A stretch of DNA of 64,000 nt, taken from assembly GCF_003846445.2 (NCBI RefSeq), contig NZ_CP030139.2:992001-1056000 (forward strand), written 5' to 3'. The stretch comes from Synechococcus elongatus PCC 11801. Its GTDB lineage: Bacteria > Cyanobacteriota > Cyanobacteriia > Synechococcales > Synechococcaceae. Positions 24,753 to 31,692 of this stretch are shown in pieces. A program made the translations under genes and the position numbers. The notes under the pieces were generated by a model that was given only the letters and a program-made list of their open reading frames with translations, searched no databases and was not told the DNA's origin. Position 1 is the stretch's first letter. Each line of letters begins with the position of its first letter.

Positions 24753-25853
24753 TTGACTCGTTTTGCACTTAAACGACGGCAGTTTTTGCTGGGAATTGGA
24801 GGTCTCTCTGCAGCATTGCTGACGGGTCAGCCGCTGCGGGTTGAAGCACAGCAGCCATCACTGGCTGAGCTCGCAAAACAGCGGTCGCTGCTCTGGGGGG
24901 CGGCCATCAGCACAGAGATGCTGACGATCCCTGACTGGGCCGGCCTCTACCGGCAACAGACTCGTCTCCTAGTGCCGGAGTGGGAAATGAAATGGGCGGT
25001 TTTGCAGCCCGATCGCGATCGCTTTGACTTCAGCCGTCCCGATCGCCTGCTAACTTTTGCCCGCTCCTACCAAGCTCAGTTACGAGGGCACACCTTACTC
25101 TGGCACCAGCAGCTGCCAACTTGGCTCAATAATCTGACGGCCACAGAAACCGCAACAGCACTGCAACGCTACATCGACACCGTTGTTGGCCACTACCGAG
25201 GCCAGTTGCAGTCTTGGGATGTGATCAATGAACCAATCGCAGAAGATGGGTATGGTTTGCGGCCGAATCGTTGGTTGCAACAGCTTGGCCCCAACTATCT
25301 TGAGCAAGCTCTGCGCTGGGCACGGGTGGCTGATGCCCAAGTTCCATTGGTGATTAATGACTATGGCCTAGAGCCCGACAGCCCCCTAGCAACCCGTAAG
25401 CGTCAGCAGTTGTTGCAACTGGTGGAGACCCTGCGCGATCGCGATGCTCCCCTGCAGGCGATCGGGTTTCAGGCACACTTAGTCGCCAATCCCCAAGCAC
25501 CCCCAAGTTTTACAGGGTTTGCAGAGTTTTTGGCGGAGCTTAGTCGCTTTGATCTGGACTTTTATATCACGGAGCTTGATGTCAATGACCGAGCTTTGCC
25601 TGCCAACTTTGCCGAACGCGATCGAGAGGTGGCCCACCTCTATCAACGCTTTTTAACGGCAGTGCTCCCCACCCCTCGCCTCAAGTTGGTGACCACTTGG
25701 GGACTCAGCGATCGCTTGAGTTGGCTCAATCAATTCGCTCCCCGCGCAGACGGGCTACCGCAGCGTCCTCTTCCATTCGACTTCAACTTTCAACCCACCG
25801 AGACCTATGGCATCCTCGTCAGCCTCCTCCAATCCCAATCGGTTTCAAACTGA
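24753..25853 (+). CDS. Glycoside hydrolase family 10 (endo-1,4-beta-xylanase type), Tat-exported
   Basis: The 366-aa protein begins at TTG; an upstream ATG at 24711 is blocked by an in-frame stop. The N-terminus LKRRQFLLGIGGLSAALL is a twin-arginine signal. The GH10 catalytic pair is visible: acid/base E160 in WDVINEPI and nucleophile E274 in YITELDVN. The segments EMKWAVLQPD, GHTLLWHQQLP and VTTWGLSDRLSWL also fit. GH10 enzymes cut beta-1,4-xylan and some related glucans. It overlaps the HlyD gene by 47 nt and lies two genes from a cellulose synthase, so processing of the exported polysaccharide is likely. Confidence 0.9.
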   Translation: MTRFALKRRQFLLGIGGLSAALLTGQPLRVEAQQPSLAELAKQRSLLWGAAISTEMLTIPDWAGLYRQQTRLLVPEWEMKWAVLQPDRDRFDFSRPDRLLTFARSYQAQLRGHTLLWHQQLPTWLNNLTATETATALQRYIDTVVGHYRGQLQSWDVINEPIAEDGYGLRPNRWLQQLGPNYLEQALRWARVADAQVPLVINDYGLEPDSPLATRKRQQLLQLVETLRDRDAPLQAIGFQAHLVANPQAPPSFTGFAEFLAELSRFDLDFYITELDVNDRALPANFAERDREVAHLYQRFLTAVLPTPRLKLVTTWGLSDRLSWLNQFAPRADGLPQRPLPFDFNFQPTETYGILVSLLQSQSVSN

Positions 25854-27048
25854 TTTGACCACAAAACCTCAACGGAGTAATGCCGCTAACTTTGTGGTCA
25901 TTAGTCTCGGTATTTTGATCCTCCTCAGCGGCGTCGGCTTATTGTTTTATGCATTGGTGACAACCCGAGGACGCGATGCCATTATCAATGCCAAAGTCAT
26001 TACACTCCAAGCCCCAGACGATGGCATTGTGACTGATTTTCAAATCAGGCCTGGGGAAGAAGTCCCTGCAAATCAGCCACTCTTACGGATTGAGAATGCT
26101 CGCGCCAGCACCTTTGATCAAGCACGCTTACAAACACAACTGAACACCGAGCAGCAAAAGCTAAAACTCCAACAGGATCAATTGGCAGCTATCGTCCAAC
26201 TCCGTCAACAGGTAGAGCTTGATAGCCGCAATCAGCAGCGTCTAGAAATTACAAAGTTTACCGAGCTTCGTCGCAAGCTCCAAGCAGACATCAGTGCAGC
26301 ACGAGAGCAATTGGCACTCGCACAAAGAATCTATCAGCGACGACAAGCCTTAGCAGCAACCGGTGCAGTCTCAGTTGAAGTTGCTGATCAAGCAGAAACA
26401 GAGTATCTGCGACAGCGAGATATTCTCAATGCCTTAACCAAGGAACTCGCTAGCCGCGAGCAAGATCTCCAAGCCGCAAGATTAGGACTGACTCTAGTCA
26501 ATACGCGCAGTAACTATGATCCGGGCGTACGGCTGCAGGAACTCAAGCTACAAGAGAGTCAGCTGCGATCGCAGGTGGCTGCGCAAACTGCTCAAGTCAA
26601 TGGACTGAAAAATCAATTGCAAGAAATTACTCGCAACACGCGATCGCGCCAGGAGATTCCGCTAGCCAGTCCTGTTCCCACGGTTTTATGGCAAGCATCG
26701 GTGAGCAATGGCGATGTTGTAACACGGGGTCAAACATTAGCCAAAACGATTGACTGCCGCGATCGCTGGGTTGATGTCTACATTGGTGAAACTGCTTTGC
26801 GTAAGATTCGAGTAGGTGAACCAGCTCGAGTCGATTTAATTGGCAAAGATAGATCTTTAGAAGGAAAAGTTATTTTTATCCGATCTGGCGTTGGTCGGTT
26901 GCGAGTAGGCGAAGATGTTTTGCCCTCAATTCCTATTAATCTTGCCCGAGAAAGTCAGGTTCGTATTCAGCTCAATCCTGACAAGATACAACCCTCTGAG
27001 TTCTGTGATGTTGGCTTTACAGGCCGTGTCACCTTCCAGAACCTTTAG
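25807..27048 (+). CDS. HlyD-family membrane fusion protein of the cellulose-type unit
   Basis: The 413-aa protein has one N-terminal transmembrane helix (NFVVISLGILILLSGVGLLFYALV, about 28-52) and a biotinyl-lipoyl-like half motif (VITLQAPDDGIVTDFQIRPGEEVPANQPLLRIEN). A long coiled-coil hairpin follows (about 105-255, rich in Gln, Leu and Arg), then the second half of the beta-barrel. It would span the periplasm as an adaptor to an outer-membrane channel. The start lies 47 nt inside the GH10 gene; cellulose synthase starts 11 bp after its stop. In Thermosynechococcus a HlyD-like protein partners a cellulose synthase in the proposed Xcs export system. Confidence 0.88.
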   Translation: MASSSASSNPNRFQTDLTTKPQRSNAANFVVISLGILILLSGVGLLFYALVTTRGRDAIINAKVITLQAPDDGIVTDFQIRPGEEVPANQPLLRIENARASTFDQARLQTQLNTEQQKLKLQQDQLAAIVQLRQQVELDSRNQQRLEITKFTELRRKLQADISAAREQLALAQRIYQRRQALAATGAVSVEVADQAETEYLRQRDILNALTKELASREQDLQAARLGLTLVNTRSNYDPGVRLQELKLQESQLRSQVAAQTAQVNGLKNQLQEITRNTRSRQEIPLASPVPTVLWQASVSNGDVVTRGQTLAKTIDCRDRWVDVYIGETALRKIRVGEPARVDLIGKDRSLEGKVIFIRSGVGRLRVGEDVLPSIPINLARESQVRIQLNPDKIQPSEFCDVGFTGRVTFQNL

Positions 27049-27059
27049 GGAACAGAATC

Positions 27060-29282
27060 ATGTCATTCCCTAATCTCTTGCGGCGAACGCAGCAGTCTAG
27101 CTTGCCACCCAATCCTATTTCGCCATGGACCTGGGGATTTTTATGTCTGAGTCTTGCTGTCTTTGTTATTGCCCTGCTCAGCCTCAATTTAAGCTGGTTC
27201 CAAAATCTACCTACTTATCTCAATCCTCAGCTGACTCGAGATTTACCTGAATCTCTACAGTTTCCAGACGAGCCGAGCAAGCTACTTCAACCCCTTTTGA
27301 TAGCAACAGCATTGCTACTCTTATTAACCGTCTTTCCCCATCATCCAGTTAGTCACTTAATCGTTCTTGTTTTCCTTTTAATTTATGGATTTAGGTACTT
27401 TATTTGGCGTTTATTTGCACTCAATTCAGGGCATTGGATTAGCCTAACTTTTAGTATTATTTTTCTGCTAGCCGAGAGTCTTTATGTCTTAAGCTTACTA
27501 GTACAGTTTTATCCTACGCTTGTTTTTGATCCTCAACGGCGATCGCGACAGGCTGATGAGCAAGAAGATATCCTGCATGAGTTCTCGCCTAGTGTCGCTA
27601 TTTGGATTCCGATTTACAATGAAGACCCTCGCATCATTCGGCGAACCATTCTCGCCTGCCAGCTAATTAACTATGACAACAAAGAAATTTACGTCTTAGA
27701 TGATGGGCATCGACCAATTATTCAAGCAATTACTGAAGAACTCAATGTTCATTACCTTAGTCGACCCGATAATACACATCGAAAAGCTGGAAATCTCAAC
27801 TATGCATTAGCTCATACAGAAAGTGATTTAATCGCTGTTTTCGACTGTGACTTCTTACCCTTTCATAATTTTCTGCAGCGGACTGTTGGTTTCTTTATTG
27901 ATGATGACATCGCTCTCGTTCAAACACCACAACACTATTACAATAGTGACTTTCATAATCGGAACCTAGGTTTAGACTATGTCTTGCCCAATGATATGGA
28001 TTACTTTTTTCACTATATCCAACCTCTTCGTGATCAATTTAATTCAGTTATTTGCTGTGGAACGTCGTATGTCGCTCGTCGCTCAGCACTTGAAGAGGTT
28101 GGTGGCTACTACACCGATTGTATTGTTGAAGATTTTCAAACTGGAACGAAGTTGCTTCTCAATCGTTGGCGGGTTGTTTATCTCAATGAGGTTTTAAGTA
28201 TAGGAGAGGTGCCTCGCCATTTTTCAGAATATCTCCAGCAACGCTTGCGCTGGATGCAAGGAAACATTCAACTTTATTGCAGTGGAGAAAAGCTACCCAT
28301 TTGGTCTCAACGTCTGACCACTTGGCAGCGGCTCTTTTATTTCAGTCTGCTGATCTACTGCTTAACACCATTGATGCGGGCAGTGTATATCCTCTTTCCA
28401 CTGCTGAGCTTCCTCTTTGGCTTCACACTCATCGCGGCACCGCCTATTGAATACTTACATTACGGCCTTCCTTTTGTCTTATTAATCTATGGCGCAACAA
28501 GTTGGTTAGCTTACAAGCACTACTTTCTCTATTGGACAGAGGTCTATGAATCCATTATGTGCTGGCCTAGCTTGCATCGACTGGTGCAGGTTCTCCTGAA
28601 TCCCTTCGGTCATTTTGGATCACTAGTGACTGCCAAGGGAGAGTTAGACAATCGCAAACGCTTCAACTGGCATATGTCTTGGCCGTTTGTTGCCTATCTC
28701 ATTTTATTTAGCCTTGGTTTCTGTCTACGCTATCTTGCCCCCTTGCTATCTCCCAACTTTGTGCGATCGCCGTTTGAAGGGGAAGGATTAATGATTGTCT
28801 GGAATTTCTACAATGCCATGTTGATGTTGGTCTGTTTATTTGCCTGTATTGATCAACCAATTCGACGGCAATTTGAGCGCTATCCCTATCAAACAGTGGC
28901 CTGTCTTGAAGTTGACGGTCGCAAACTTTGGGGAGTGACTCAAGATCTTTCAGAAGGCGGAGCCAGTTTTGTCTTACGCAATGAGCGAGACCTGCAATTG
29001 ATCTATGGACAGGCAGAGCTTGTCTTGTTGAGAGAAGAGCTACGAATACCCGTCAATGTCTTACGGATTAGTCGGAAAGCCATCAATGGACATCGCCAAA
29101 TTGGCCTTGAGTTCAAAATTCCTGACAAAGCTGCCGAACAAATGCTCATTCGCTTGCTCTATGTAGATTCAGGGTTATGGTGGCATCAAGTACGTCGGAC
29201 AAGCGCACTCGATGCTTTCTTGCTGCTGATTCGTTCTGCCTTAAATCCACATGCACTCTTAACACGCTACAGAGATGGCTAA
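27060..29282 (+). CDS. Cellulose synthase catalytic subunit-like glycosyltransferase (GT2) with PilZ domain
   Basis: The 740-aa protein has several N-terminal helices, then the GT2 domain. Its residues are D214-D215 (VLDDGHRP), D262-C-D264 (FDCDFLP), the TED-like VEDFQTG and Q394-x2-R397-W398 (QRLRWMQG). This full D,D,D,QxxRW set marks a processive beta-glycan synthase. More membrane helices follow, then a PilZ domain with c-di-GMP site R602-R603...R607 and D629-x-S631-x2-G634 (DLSEGGASF). Cellulose is the likely product, made and exported under c-di-GMP control. It has an AGGGA ribosome site and is the last gene of the unit. Confidence 0.93.
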   Translation: MSFPNLLRRTQQSSLPPNPISPWTWGFLCLSLAVFVIALLSLNLSWFQNLPTYLNPQLTRDLPESLQFPDEPSKLLQPLLIATALLLLLTVFPHHPVSHLIVLVFLLIYGFRYFIWRLFALNSGHWISLTFSIIFLLAESLYVLSLLVQFYPTLVFDPQRRSRQADEQEDILHEFSPSVAIWIPIYNEDPRIIRRTILACQLINYDNKEIYVLDDGHRPIIQAITEELNVHYLSRPDNTHRKAGNLNYALAHTESDLIAVFDCDFLPFHNFLQRTVGFFIDDDIALVQTPQHYYNSDFHNRNLGLDYVLPNDMDYFFHYIQPLRDQFNSVICCGTSYVARRSALEEVGGYYTDCIVEDFQTGTKLLLNRWRVVYLNEVLSIGEVPRHFSEYLQQRLRWMQGNIQLYCSGEKLPIWSQRLTTWQRLFYFSLLIYCLTPLMRAVYILFPLLSFLFGFTLIAAPPIEYLHYGLPFVLLIYGATSWLAYKHYFLYWTEVYESIMCWPSLHRLVQVLLNPFGHFGSLVTAKGELDNRKRFNWHMSWPFVAYLILFSLGFCLRYLAPLLSPNFVRSPFEGEGLMIVWNFYNAMLMLVCLFACIDQPIRRQFERYPYQTVACLEVDGRKLWGVTQDLSEGGASFVLRNERDLQLIYGQAELVLLREELRIPVNVLRISRKAINGHRQIGLEFKIPDKAAEQMLIRLLYVDSGLWWHQVRRTSALDAFLLLIRSALNPHALLTRYRDG

Positions 29283-29550: not shown

Positions 29551-31500
29551 TTAGCCAAACAGCTTTCTGAAAAAGCCCTTGATTTTGCACAGTAAACGAC
29601 TGAAGAGACTGGGCTTCGGTGCTTCACTGGCCAATTGAAGTGATCCTTGGGGAGCTGCTGGTTGCATGCGATCGCCAAGGATCTGGCTTGGAACGGCAGC
29701 AGCAGTAAGGTTCTCTTGAGCAGCGGTTTCTGGCGGAGCTTCTGGGGCTGGTAGCACTTCTGGCACAGGCGCTAGTTCTGGAATTTCAGCTTCAATCGCT
29801 GCTGGGGTACTTTCCTGAGCTGTTTCCAGTGGATCAGCTGCGATTGTGGGTAAATCTACTACTGGCTGGCTGACTGTTTCTGTTGTTTCAGTTGCAATCG
29901 CGGACACAGCCTCCAAAGTCTCACCAATCGGCTCTTGGAGGGCAGCCTGCCAATCTTCAGCAGGCGTTGGTGTTGGCAAAGATTCCACTGACTCTTCTGC
30001 TGCAGTAGCAGTAAGGTCCTCTAAGGGCGTCTCATCCGTAGTGACATCATCAGTCACTTCCGGATCTGGGAATGCTGCGAGGAGTGGCTCAGCCTCAGCC
30101 TGAGGAGGATCGACCAAGCTACTAAATTTCTCTTGAGCATTGGCGGCTAATTCCGCAGCCCCTGCTTGCAAGTTGCTCAGGGTTTCTGACGCTGCATCAC
30201 GCAGATCACCCAAGCGATCGCTCGCAGCTTCACCCAAACTTGCAGCTTTTTCTTGGGCTGTTGTCCATACCCCACTCAGATCATCTTGGCGATCTTCAAC
30301 AAATGCACCAAATTTTTCTTGGGCGCCCGCAGCCAAGTCAGTTGCACCCTCCTGTAAGTTCCCAACTCCCTCTGCTACTGAAGCCCCCAGATCAGCCGCT
30401 GTATCGGCAACCGATTGCAAGGCCGTGGTAAAGGGATTCGCGGCATCTTCTGATGCCGGTTCAACAGCAGTGTCTGTAGGCAGATCTGCCAAGATCTCAT
30501 CGACCGTATCGCTAGGGGACGCTGGCTGCTCAGACACCGGCGGCTGCAACCAGTCCTCATTGGAGGCTGGATCAGCTTCAGGAAGGTCGGGCGAAGTAGC
30601 CGTAAAGTCACTGAACTTCTCACGAGCGCCAGCTGCGAGCTCCGCAACTTTCTCTTGAGCAGCACCGGTCAGACCACTGGCCCCTTCTTGCAAGTTGCTG
30701 AAAACATCCGAGGCAGAATCGCGCAGATTGCCGAAGCGATCGCCAACAGCTTCGCCAAAACTTGCAGCTTTCTCTTGAGTCGTTTCCGCAAGGTCGCTTA
30801 ACTTTTCCTGACCTGCTTCTGCAAAAGCTCCAAACTTCTCTTGCGCGCCTGCAGCGAATCCAGAAGCACTCTCCTGCAGATTACTCAGTCCTTCAGTGGC
30901 TGATTCGCGGAGATCACTGAAGCGATCGCTCGCAGCCTCTCCAAAACTTGCAGCTTTCTCCTGGGCTGTGGTCAAGAGATCACTGAGATCATCCTTGTGA
31001 GCTTCTGCAAAGGTGCCAAACTTTTCTTGAGTCTCAGAAGCTAAGTCAGCTGCGCTTTCTCGCAAGTTACCGAGACTTTCTGAAGCAGAATCGCGTAGGC
31101 CACCCAATCGATCGCTGATAACTTCACCGAAACTGGCCGCTTTTTCCTGAGCGCCGGCAAAGAGATCACCCAAGTCATCTTTACGGGCTTCCGTAAAATC
31201 GCCCAACGTTTCTTTGGCACCTGCGGCTAAGTCTGCAGCATTTTCCCTTAGATTGCTGAGACCTTCTGCGGCTGCCGATCCAAGCTCAGAAGCTTTATCG
31301 GTCACAGACTGAAAAACTGCCGAGAAGGGATTCTCAGGATCTGTGGGTGTTGGCTCGGAGGCAAGTTCTACTAAAAAATCACCGGCTGCTGGCTCTGCAG
31401 GAGGGTCAGTCGCAAGGTCTGCGAGGAGCTCATCGAGCGAAATCTCTTCACCTTCAGAGGGCGTGTTGCCTGAACTATTTGGCGCGTTGTTGTTAGTCAT
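29551..31500 (-). CDS. Large repetitive amphipathic-helix protein, unknown function
   Basis: The 649-aa protein starts at the ATG at 31500, with GAGGG upstream. Most of it is built from Ala/Glu/Lys-rich units of about 60 residues that repeat SNLRESAADLAAGAQEKFG, FAEAxxDDLSDL and AQEKAASFGEAASDRFGxL. Four full units are visible plus partial ones. Two blocks each open with a similar cap (NPFSAVFQSVTD and NPFTTALQSVAD), indicating an internal duplication. The last ~20 residues (SLFSRLLCKIKGFFRKLF) form a basic amphipathic helix. The pattern resembles LEA or apolipoprotein-type helices that lie on membranes. There is no signal peptide. Confidence 0.85.
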   Translation of the reverse strand: MTNNNAPNSSGNTPSEGEEISLDELLADLATDPPAEPAAGDFLVELASEPTPTDPENPFSAVFQSVTDKASELGSAAAEGLSNLRENAADLAAGAKETLGDFTEARKDDLGDLFAGAQEKAASFGEVISDRLGGLRDSASESLGNLRESAADLASETQEKFGTFAEAHKDDLSDLLTTAQEKAASFGEAASDRFSDLRESATEGLSNLQESASGFAAGAQEKFGAFAEAGQEKLSDLAETTQEKAASFGEAVGDRFGNLRDSASDVFSNLQEGASGLTGAAQEKVAELAAGAREKFSDFTATSPDLPEADPASNEDWLQPPVSEQPASPSDTVDEILADLPTDTAVEPASEDAANPFTTALQSVADTAADLGASVAEGVGNLQEGATDLAAGAQEKFGAFVEDRQDDLSGVWTTAQEKAASLGEAASDRLGDLRDAASETLSNLQAGAAELAANAQEKFSSLVDPPQAEAEPLLAAFPDPEVTDDVTTDETPLEDLTATAAEESVESLPTPTPAEDWQAALQEPIGETLEAVSAIATETTETVSQPVVDLPTIAADPLETAQESTPAAIEAEIPELAPVPEVLPAPEAPPETAAQENLTAAAVPSQILGDRMQPAAPQGSLQLASEAPKPSLFSRLLCKIKGFFRKLFG

Positions 31501-31692
31501 GGGGTTTCCCTCTGCAGAACACCGTGGCCCAGTGACAGGCATTGCTCAAATTCTGGCTAGATTTGACGCCTATGACCACAATTGCAACGATTCATTGACG
31601 ATCGCCAAGGGTAATTTTGGGTGTGTGTTGGCTACAAGCTCAGGGTTTAGCTAGCGTAGAGGGAGCACGTCAGCGATCGCGATCGCAGTTGA

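Follow-up and report, generated by a model that had tools for sequence, protein, structure and literature searches.

A compact operon in the window, the whole 64,000-nucleotide stretch of Synechococcus elongatus PCC 11801 DNA analysed here, probably encodes an Xcs-type unit for cellulose synthesis and export within which the c-di-GMP switch is altered; we assign this reading a rough probability of 0.72. The ORF calls place three forward-strand genes in a row, for a GH10 hydrolase, an HlyD-like adaptor and a GT2-PilZ synthase:

24753..25853, + strand: GH10 endo-β-1,4-glycanase of the alpha type with a Tat-like signal (366 aa, TTG start; PF00331, catalytic motifs, trees)
25807..27048, + strand: XcsB, a periplasmic adaptor resembling HlyD/EmrA, with a single TM helix at its N terminus (413 aa; PF13437/PF16576, structure model, Foldseek best match EmrA)
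27060..29282, + strand: XcsA, a GT2 cellulose-synthase-like protein with a PilZ domain (740 aa; Pfam, NCBIfam; Tll0007 orthologue by tree)

In Pfam, the hydrolase matches PF00331 (E 1.7e-79), the adaptor matches PF13437 HlyD_3 (E 6.4e-18), and the synthase matches GT2 families and PilZ PF07238 (E 9.6e-13). The synthase also scores 395 bits against NCBIfam TIGR03030 CelA, under the equivalog cut-off of 699. The TTG start of the GH10 gene is followed by a Tat-like KRRQFLLG signal, a sub-cut-off match to Pfam TAT_signal. GH10 and adaptor genes overlap by 47 nt, and 11 bp separate the adaptor from the synthase; the coordinates and domains proposed in an earlier sequence-only reading are thus borne out by the ORF calls and Pfam. 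The overlap is a function of start choice: it holds for the adaptor ATG at 25807 and is abolished by an in-frame TTG at 25855, and relatives have a 4-nt overlap or a gap of ~70–145 nt at this junction. The order GH10-HlyD-synthase recurs in six other loci (L049, L050, L163, L164, L165 and L167), so the arrangement is not due to chance. Directly beyond the operon, a reverse-strand gene (29551–31542) encodes a repeat-rich protein of 663 aa, whose apolipoprotein-like and YtxH-like matches stay below threshold.

The clustering itself is not new, as the operon has already been published for S. elongatus PCC 7942. Excerpts of a 2025 review (PMC12430437) name it XcsA (1398), XcsB (1399) and XcsC (1400), report a similar operon in N. 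punctiforme (F6499–F6501), note a second pair, 2151/2152, in PCC 7942, and call the XcsA-XcsB-TolC model unvalidated. In T. vulcanus, tll0007, tlr0903, tlr1902 and the TolC-like tlr1605 are described as required for cellulose-mediated aggregation or cellulose production (excerpts of PMC7582838), and the PilZ domain of Tll0007 binds c-di-GMP in an R605-dependent manner with a Kd of 63.9 µM (excerpts of PMC5871770). Genes 1398 and 2151 appear in a table headed as horizontally transferred genes (excerpts of PMC3025956). The present analysis adds a tip motif, a strict synthase-adaptor pairing, two GH10 lineages, and an altered gate and lock.

A search of genome contigs with the single synthase protein gave no relatives, and one with an alignment as the query gave matches. 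In 386 genomes sampled from the phylum, 123 genome matches were listed, and wider stretches were examined for part of them. A tree of 61 synthases comprises clade I (11 rows), clade II (11 rows) and clade III (39 rows). Clade I consists of the window synthase, four f19 rows, five f18 rows and one f7 row, and clade II includes the second pair of the window genome itself. When seven named loci are added and a degenerate row is excluded, clade I is still one group (17 rows, SH-aLRT 100). An HlyD-like gene lies nearby in 6/11 clade-I, 10/11 clade-II and 0/39 clade-III rows among the examined loci. L054 lies at a chromosome start, and its RXXXR motif is R601–R605, in the numbering reported for Tll0007 R605. 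With L054 equated with Tll0007 by position and by this numbering, the window synthase can be assigned as the Tll0007 orthologue. The XcsB profile (A1) finds a gene at G081 C1:919182-920453 with 435 bits, which its place identifies as the presumed tlr0903, and the window adaptor can likewise be taken as the Tlr0903 orthologue. Identities of the window proteins are 43% for the synthase to L054, 35% for the adaptor to L148 and 28% for the GH10 to L143. The scattering of these genes in Thermosynechococcus, noted in the sequence-only reading, is confirmed in G081, where they lie near 5.4, 919 and 1,989 kb of contig C1.

The clade-I synthase and its adaptor are strictly paired. The XcsB(I) profile reaches at least 430 bits in 10/386 genomes; these are 10 of the 11 that carry a clade-I synthase, against 0/375 others (Fisher 6e-19, kinship ignored). 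The profile was built from 6 of these 10 genomes, and the other 4 were recovered independently. GH10 matches occur in 9/10 XcsB-positive genomes versus 22/376 others, the exception being G314, which has no GH10 match; BcsB occurs in 21/386 genomes and in 0/10 XcsB-positive ones. In the eleventh clade-I genome, G262, the profile search gives no XcsB match, and its clade-I-like synthase (L075, 6880–9108) has no QxxRW or FDxDF motif, sits on a very long branch (3.35) and looks degenerate. Other arrangements were also observed. In L055 (G272), another ORF lies between the clade-I synthase and the adaptor, with a clade-II adaptor nearby and a clade-II synthase elsewhere. In L065 (7208–12061, G239), a tandem pair of clade-II synthases lies behind one HlyD gene. 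Outside the cyanobacteria, too, HlyD-like genes adjoin CesA-like synthases, chiefly in alphaproteobacteria (L209, L212, L213, L220, L221, L224, L232, L233, L234, L235 and L239), and in two Verrucomicrobia MAGs (L198 and L199).

The monomer model of XcsB (mean pLDDT 78.6, pTM 0.42) comprises a TM helix (25–46) and a long hairpin (103–184/190–225+239–282) with a turn at residues 185–189. Its top Foldseek match is EmrA (1.6e-18), with PDB TM-scores of ~0.3. The modelled hairpin tip carries one defined motif:

26338..26373, + strand: TolC-tip motif R178-x3-L182-x6-S189 at the modelled tip (turn 185–189), as defined in PMC3391258

According to excerpts of that paper (PMC3391258), RxxxLxxxxxxS binds TolC in MacA, AcrA and HlyD, and its third position is more permissive. 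Over 17 clade-I adaptors, Arg and Leu are each present in 17/17, and the third residue is Ser in 4, Ala in 8 and Pro in 5. Residues 228–245 form a break in the return helix (LTLxNTRSNYDPxxRLQE) that is conserved in clade-I adaptors.

The window GH10 has the catalytic residues Glu160 (WDVINE) and Glu274 (ITELD). GH10s linked to clade I are of two types, which are located at opposite ends of the cluster. The alpha type (7 rows: the window, L049, L050, L163, L164, L165 and L167) lies 5´ of the adaptor and synthase. The beta type (8 rows) lies 3´ of both genes in L056, L166 and L168, whereas the f18 genomes have it at an unlinked site (L143–L147). Mean BLAST scores are 114 between alpha and beta, 218 between alpha and other cyanobacterial GH10s, and 254 between beta and the solved xylanase 7d88. 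Of 44 GH10 matches, 29 entered the first tree; the GH10 trees left out L160 and L161 (long branches) and L115 (the same gene as L049). A single clade for all 15 linked GH10s is rejected (p 3.6e-9) in a 37-row set anchored by solved xylanases and Marinococcus, a value that depends mainly on the placement of the solved chain 7d88 with the beta GH10s. Without anchors, the one-clade test gives p 0.033 (27 rows, 9 linked) and p 0.12 (33 rows, 15 linked). Orthology of the window GH10 with XcsC (Tlr1902, matched to L143 solely by its position) was rejected, as the two fall in different lineages in the trees. Since beta-bearing rows surround the alpha group on the synthase tree, replacement of a beta GH10 by an alpha GH10 in the window lineage appears the favoured course. 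A further GH10-synthase pairing was seen in two Marinococcus species, with a GH10 immediately 5´ of a CesA-like synthase (L217 189–1247 and L241 6908–7966).

The synthase retains its catalytic motifs (DDG, DxD, ED and QxxRW) and its PilZ motifs (RxxxR and DxSxxG), and it differs from BcsA at the gate and the lock:

28206..28217, + strand: E383-V-P-R386, a charge reversal at the resting-state lock, R386 corresponding to R. sphaeroides BcsA E371 (alignment, column scan, phmmer)
28620..28637, + strand: gating loop SLVTAK (S521–K526), replacing FxVTxK (alignment, phmmer)
28866..28880, + strand: PilZ c-di-GMP motif RQFER (R603–R607) (alignment)
28944..28961, + strand: PilZ motif DLSEGG (D629–G634) (alignment)

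The alignment holds 18 clade-I, 11 clade-II, 39 clade-III and 73 other synthases, and the clade-I residue counts left out L075 (degenerate) and L057 (truncated). In the 16 intact clade-I rows, the S521 position is Ser in 14 and Gly in 2, versus Phe in 122/122 of the others with a letter there. R386 is Arg in 16/16 clade-I rows and elsewhere Glu in 111, Asp in 11 and Thr in 1 of 123; E383 is Glu in 16/16 and elsewhere Leu in 109, Met in 11 and Ala in 3. A column scan of clade I against the rest yields four separating columns: D312, E383, R386 and S521. In phmmer alignments to solved BcsA, S521 falls on the Phe of RFAVTAK (F503), and R386 falls on the Glu eleven residues ahead of the QxxRW Arg; because this Arg is R382, the Glu is E371. 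The c-di-GMP residues R603, R607, S631 and G634 are present in 17/17 clade-I rows with letters, and position 629 is Asp in 13, Asn in 3 and Glu in 1.

Published work on BcsA covers both replaced residues. As quoted in excerpts of PMC10592267, F503A and F503I abolish activity, and Ser and Gly are absent among the mutants quoted. A salt bridge between E371 and R580 keeps the enzyme at rest, and the R580A mutant shows constitutive activity (excerpts of PMC5567048). The FxVTxK motif was fully conserved in an earlier β-glucan synthase set (excerpts of PMC6821405). The activity of a Ser-bearing XcsA is deduced solely from the genetics of Tll0007, since F503A and F503I inactivate BcsA. The literature searched, in part as excerpts and with the primary 2018 Xcs paper outside its range, holds no mention of gate or lock changes in cyanobacteria. 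Clade II, which is also HlyD-linked, keeps Phe (11/11) and Glu (11/11); working with an HlyD adaptor therefore does not in general bring about the change. The changed rows form one clade, and the changes probably represent one evolutionary event and not 16. With Ser for Phe at 521, Arg for Glu at 386 and a new Glu at 383, both the lock and the gate of BcsA are altered, which suggests that the c-di-GMP switch of XcsA probably works via different contacts. A bolder proposal, which we hold only tentatively and consider possible but doubtful, is a re-engineered switch: the gate would operate without Phe, the lock would have moved from Glu371 to the acid at 383 together with Arg386, and other contacts would govern activity, perhaps those made on engaging the HlyD-type adaptor. 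Such a synthase would fire only once it is joined to its exit channel.

In the Xcs reading, XcsA would polymerise β-1,4-glucan, most plausibly cellulose, from UDP-glucose and extrude it across the inner membrane when its PilZ domain holds c-di-GMP. XcsB, held beside XcsA by its one TM helix, would lead the polymer through the periplasm inside a barrel of long hairpins and dock tip-to-tip on the single TolC-type channel of the genome; the physical XcsA-XcsB-TolC complex is inferred. The GH10, exported through its Tat-like signal, may trim or clear misplaced periplasmic chains, as BcsZ does in Bcs systems. The degenerate G262 synthase without XcsB, G314 without GH10, the Ala or Pro at the third tip-motif position in 13/17 adaptors, the pTM of 0.42 and TM-scores of ~0.3 for the monomer model, and the inactivation of BcsA by F503A and F503I count against this reading.

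Domain searches of the genome (2.80 Mb, 7 contigs) bear on two other explanations of export. BcsB, BcsC_C and GH8 each gave 0 matches, and 16 GGDEF matches were found. Ordinary Bcs-type export through a BcsB/BcsC pair encoded elsewhere would suit a CelA/BcsA homologue with a PilZ domain; it is very improbable and largely refuted by these absences unless BcsB is highly diverged, and a cyanobacterial BcsB can adjoin another, 30–33% identical synthase (G292 C32 and G330). Alternatively, the adaptor may serve another transporter or export a protein, its place beside the synthase being incidental. The usual partners of adaptors with this fold are MFS, ABC or RND pumps, and the genome has about nine adaptor genes (ten HlyD_3 matches) and a single OEP/TolC-type gene (two OEP domains). 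This explanation is unlikely, as the adaptor tightly co-occurs with XcsA by lineage even where the genes are scattered, and no transporter gene was seen among the neighbouring window ORFs. A TolC-type gene is present, as the sequence-only reading anticipated; it was dropped as evidence because OEP genes occur in 385/386 genomes and its presence says little. The proposal of a dedicated export machine not of the BcsB/BcsC type is supported by orthology and the missing Bcs partners, and it stays the preferred reading of an operon already published.

The product might instead be another β-1,4-polymer and not plain cellulose, reflected in a xylanase-type hydrolase and the altered gate. Among solved structures the GH10 comes closest to xylanases, and the switch and further residues differ; against this, exo-β-1,4-glucanase/xylanase (Cex) GH10s are also close, DDG, DxD, ED and QxxRW are intact, and reviews link the T. 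vulcanus orthologue with cellulose (excerpts of PMC12430437 and PMC7582838). We regard this as improbable and retain cellulose as the probable product.

In structure-function studies the FxVTxK gate counts as fully conserved, and E371 belongs to the lock that c-di-GMP opens. A lineage in which both are changed, one of its synthases being tied to cellulose by genetics, implies hidden compensation or a different switch, and the change is testable by a three-residue swap. For the unproven XcsA-XcsB-TolC model, the genes now offer a compact operon and the adaptor a defined docking motif; the hydrolase slot is filled by two different GH10 lineages.

Compared with BcsA-BcsB-BcsC, XcsA shares the synthase fold, the catalytic motifs, and the PilZ RxxxR and DxSxxG motifs, whereas BcsB, BcsC and BcsZ (GH8) are missing from the window genome. 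Relative to the canonical BcsA switch, Phe503 and E371 (the R580 partner) are replaced in XcsA and the c-di-GMP motifs are kept. XcsB shares its fold and tip motif with EmrA, MacA and HlyD, but those adaptors serve a pump, whereas the partner of XcsB would be a polysaccharide synthase. Two more synthases in the genome exceed 30% identity and 200 bits, one with an HlyD neighbour (L046) and one without (L047). The L046 pair, of the 2151/2152 type, resembles the operon in that HlyD adjoins a PilZ synthase; unlike the operon, it belongs to the separate clade II, keeps Phe and Glu, and has no GH10 match alongside. Neither this pair nor the altered switch residues figured in the sequence-only reading. 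The PCC 7942 operon (1400-1399-1398) and N. punctiforme F6499–F6501 have the same gene content as the window operon, and the window order fits the former; the Nostoc-type loci L056 and L168 differ in their adaptor-synthase-GH10 order and beta-type GH10. T. vulcanus Xcs (XcsA Tll0007, XcsB Tlr0903, XcsC Tlr1902, TolC-like Tlr1605) shares with the window an orthologous synthase and adaptor, the PilZ motifs and the altered gate residues, but its genes are scattered whereas those of the window are clustered, with a GH10 of the other lineage at the 5´ end of the operon.
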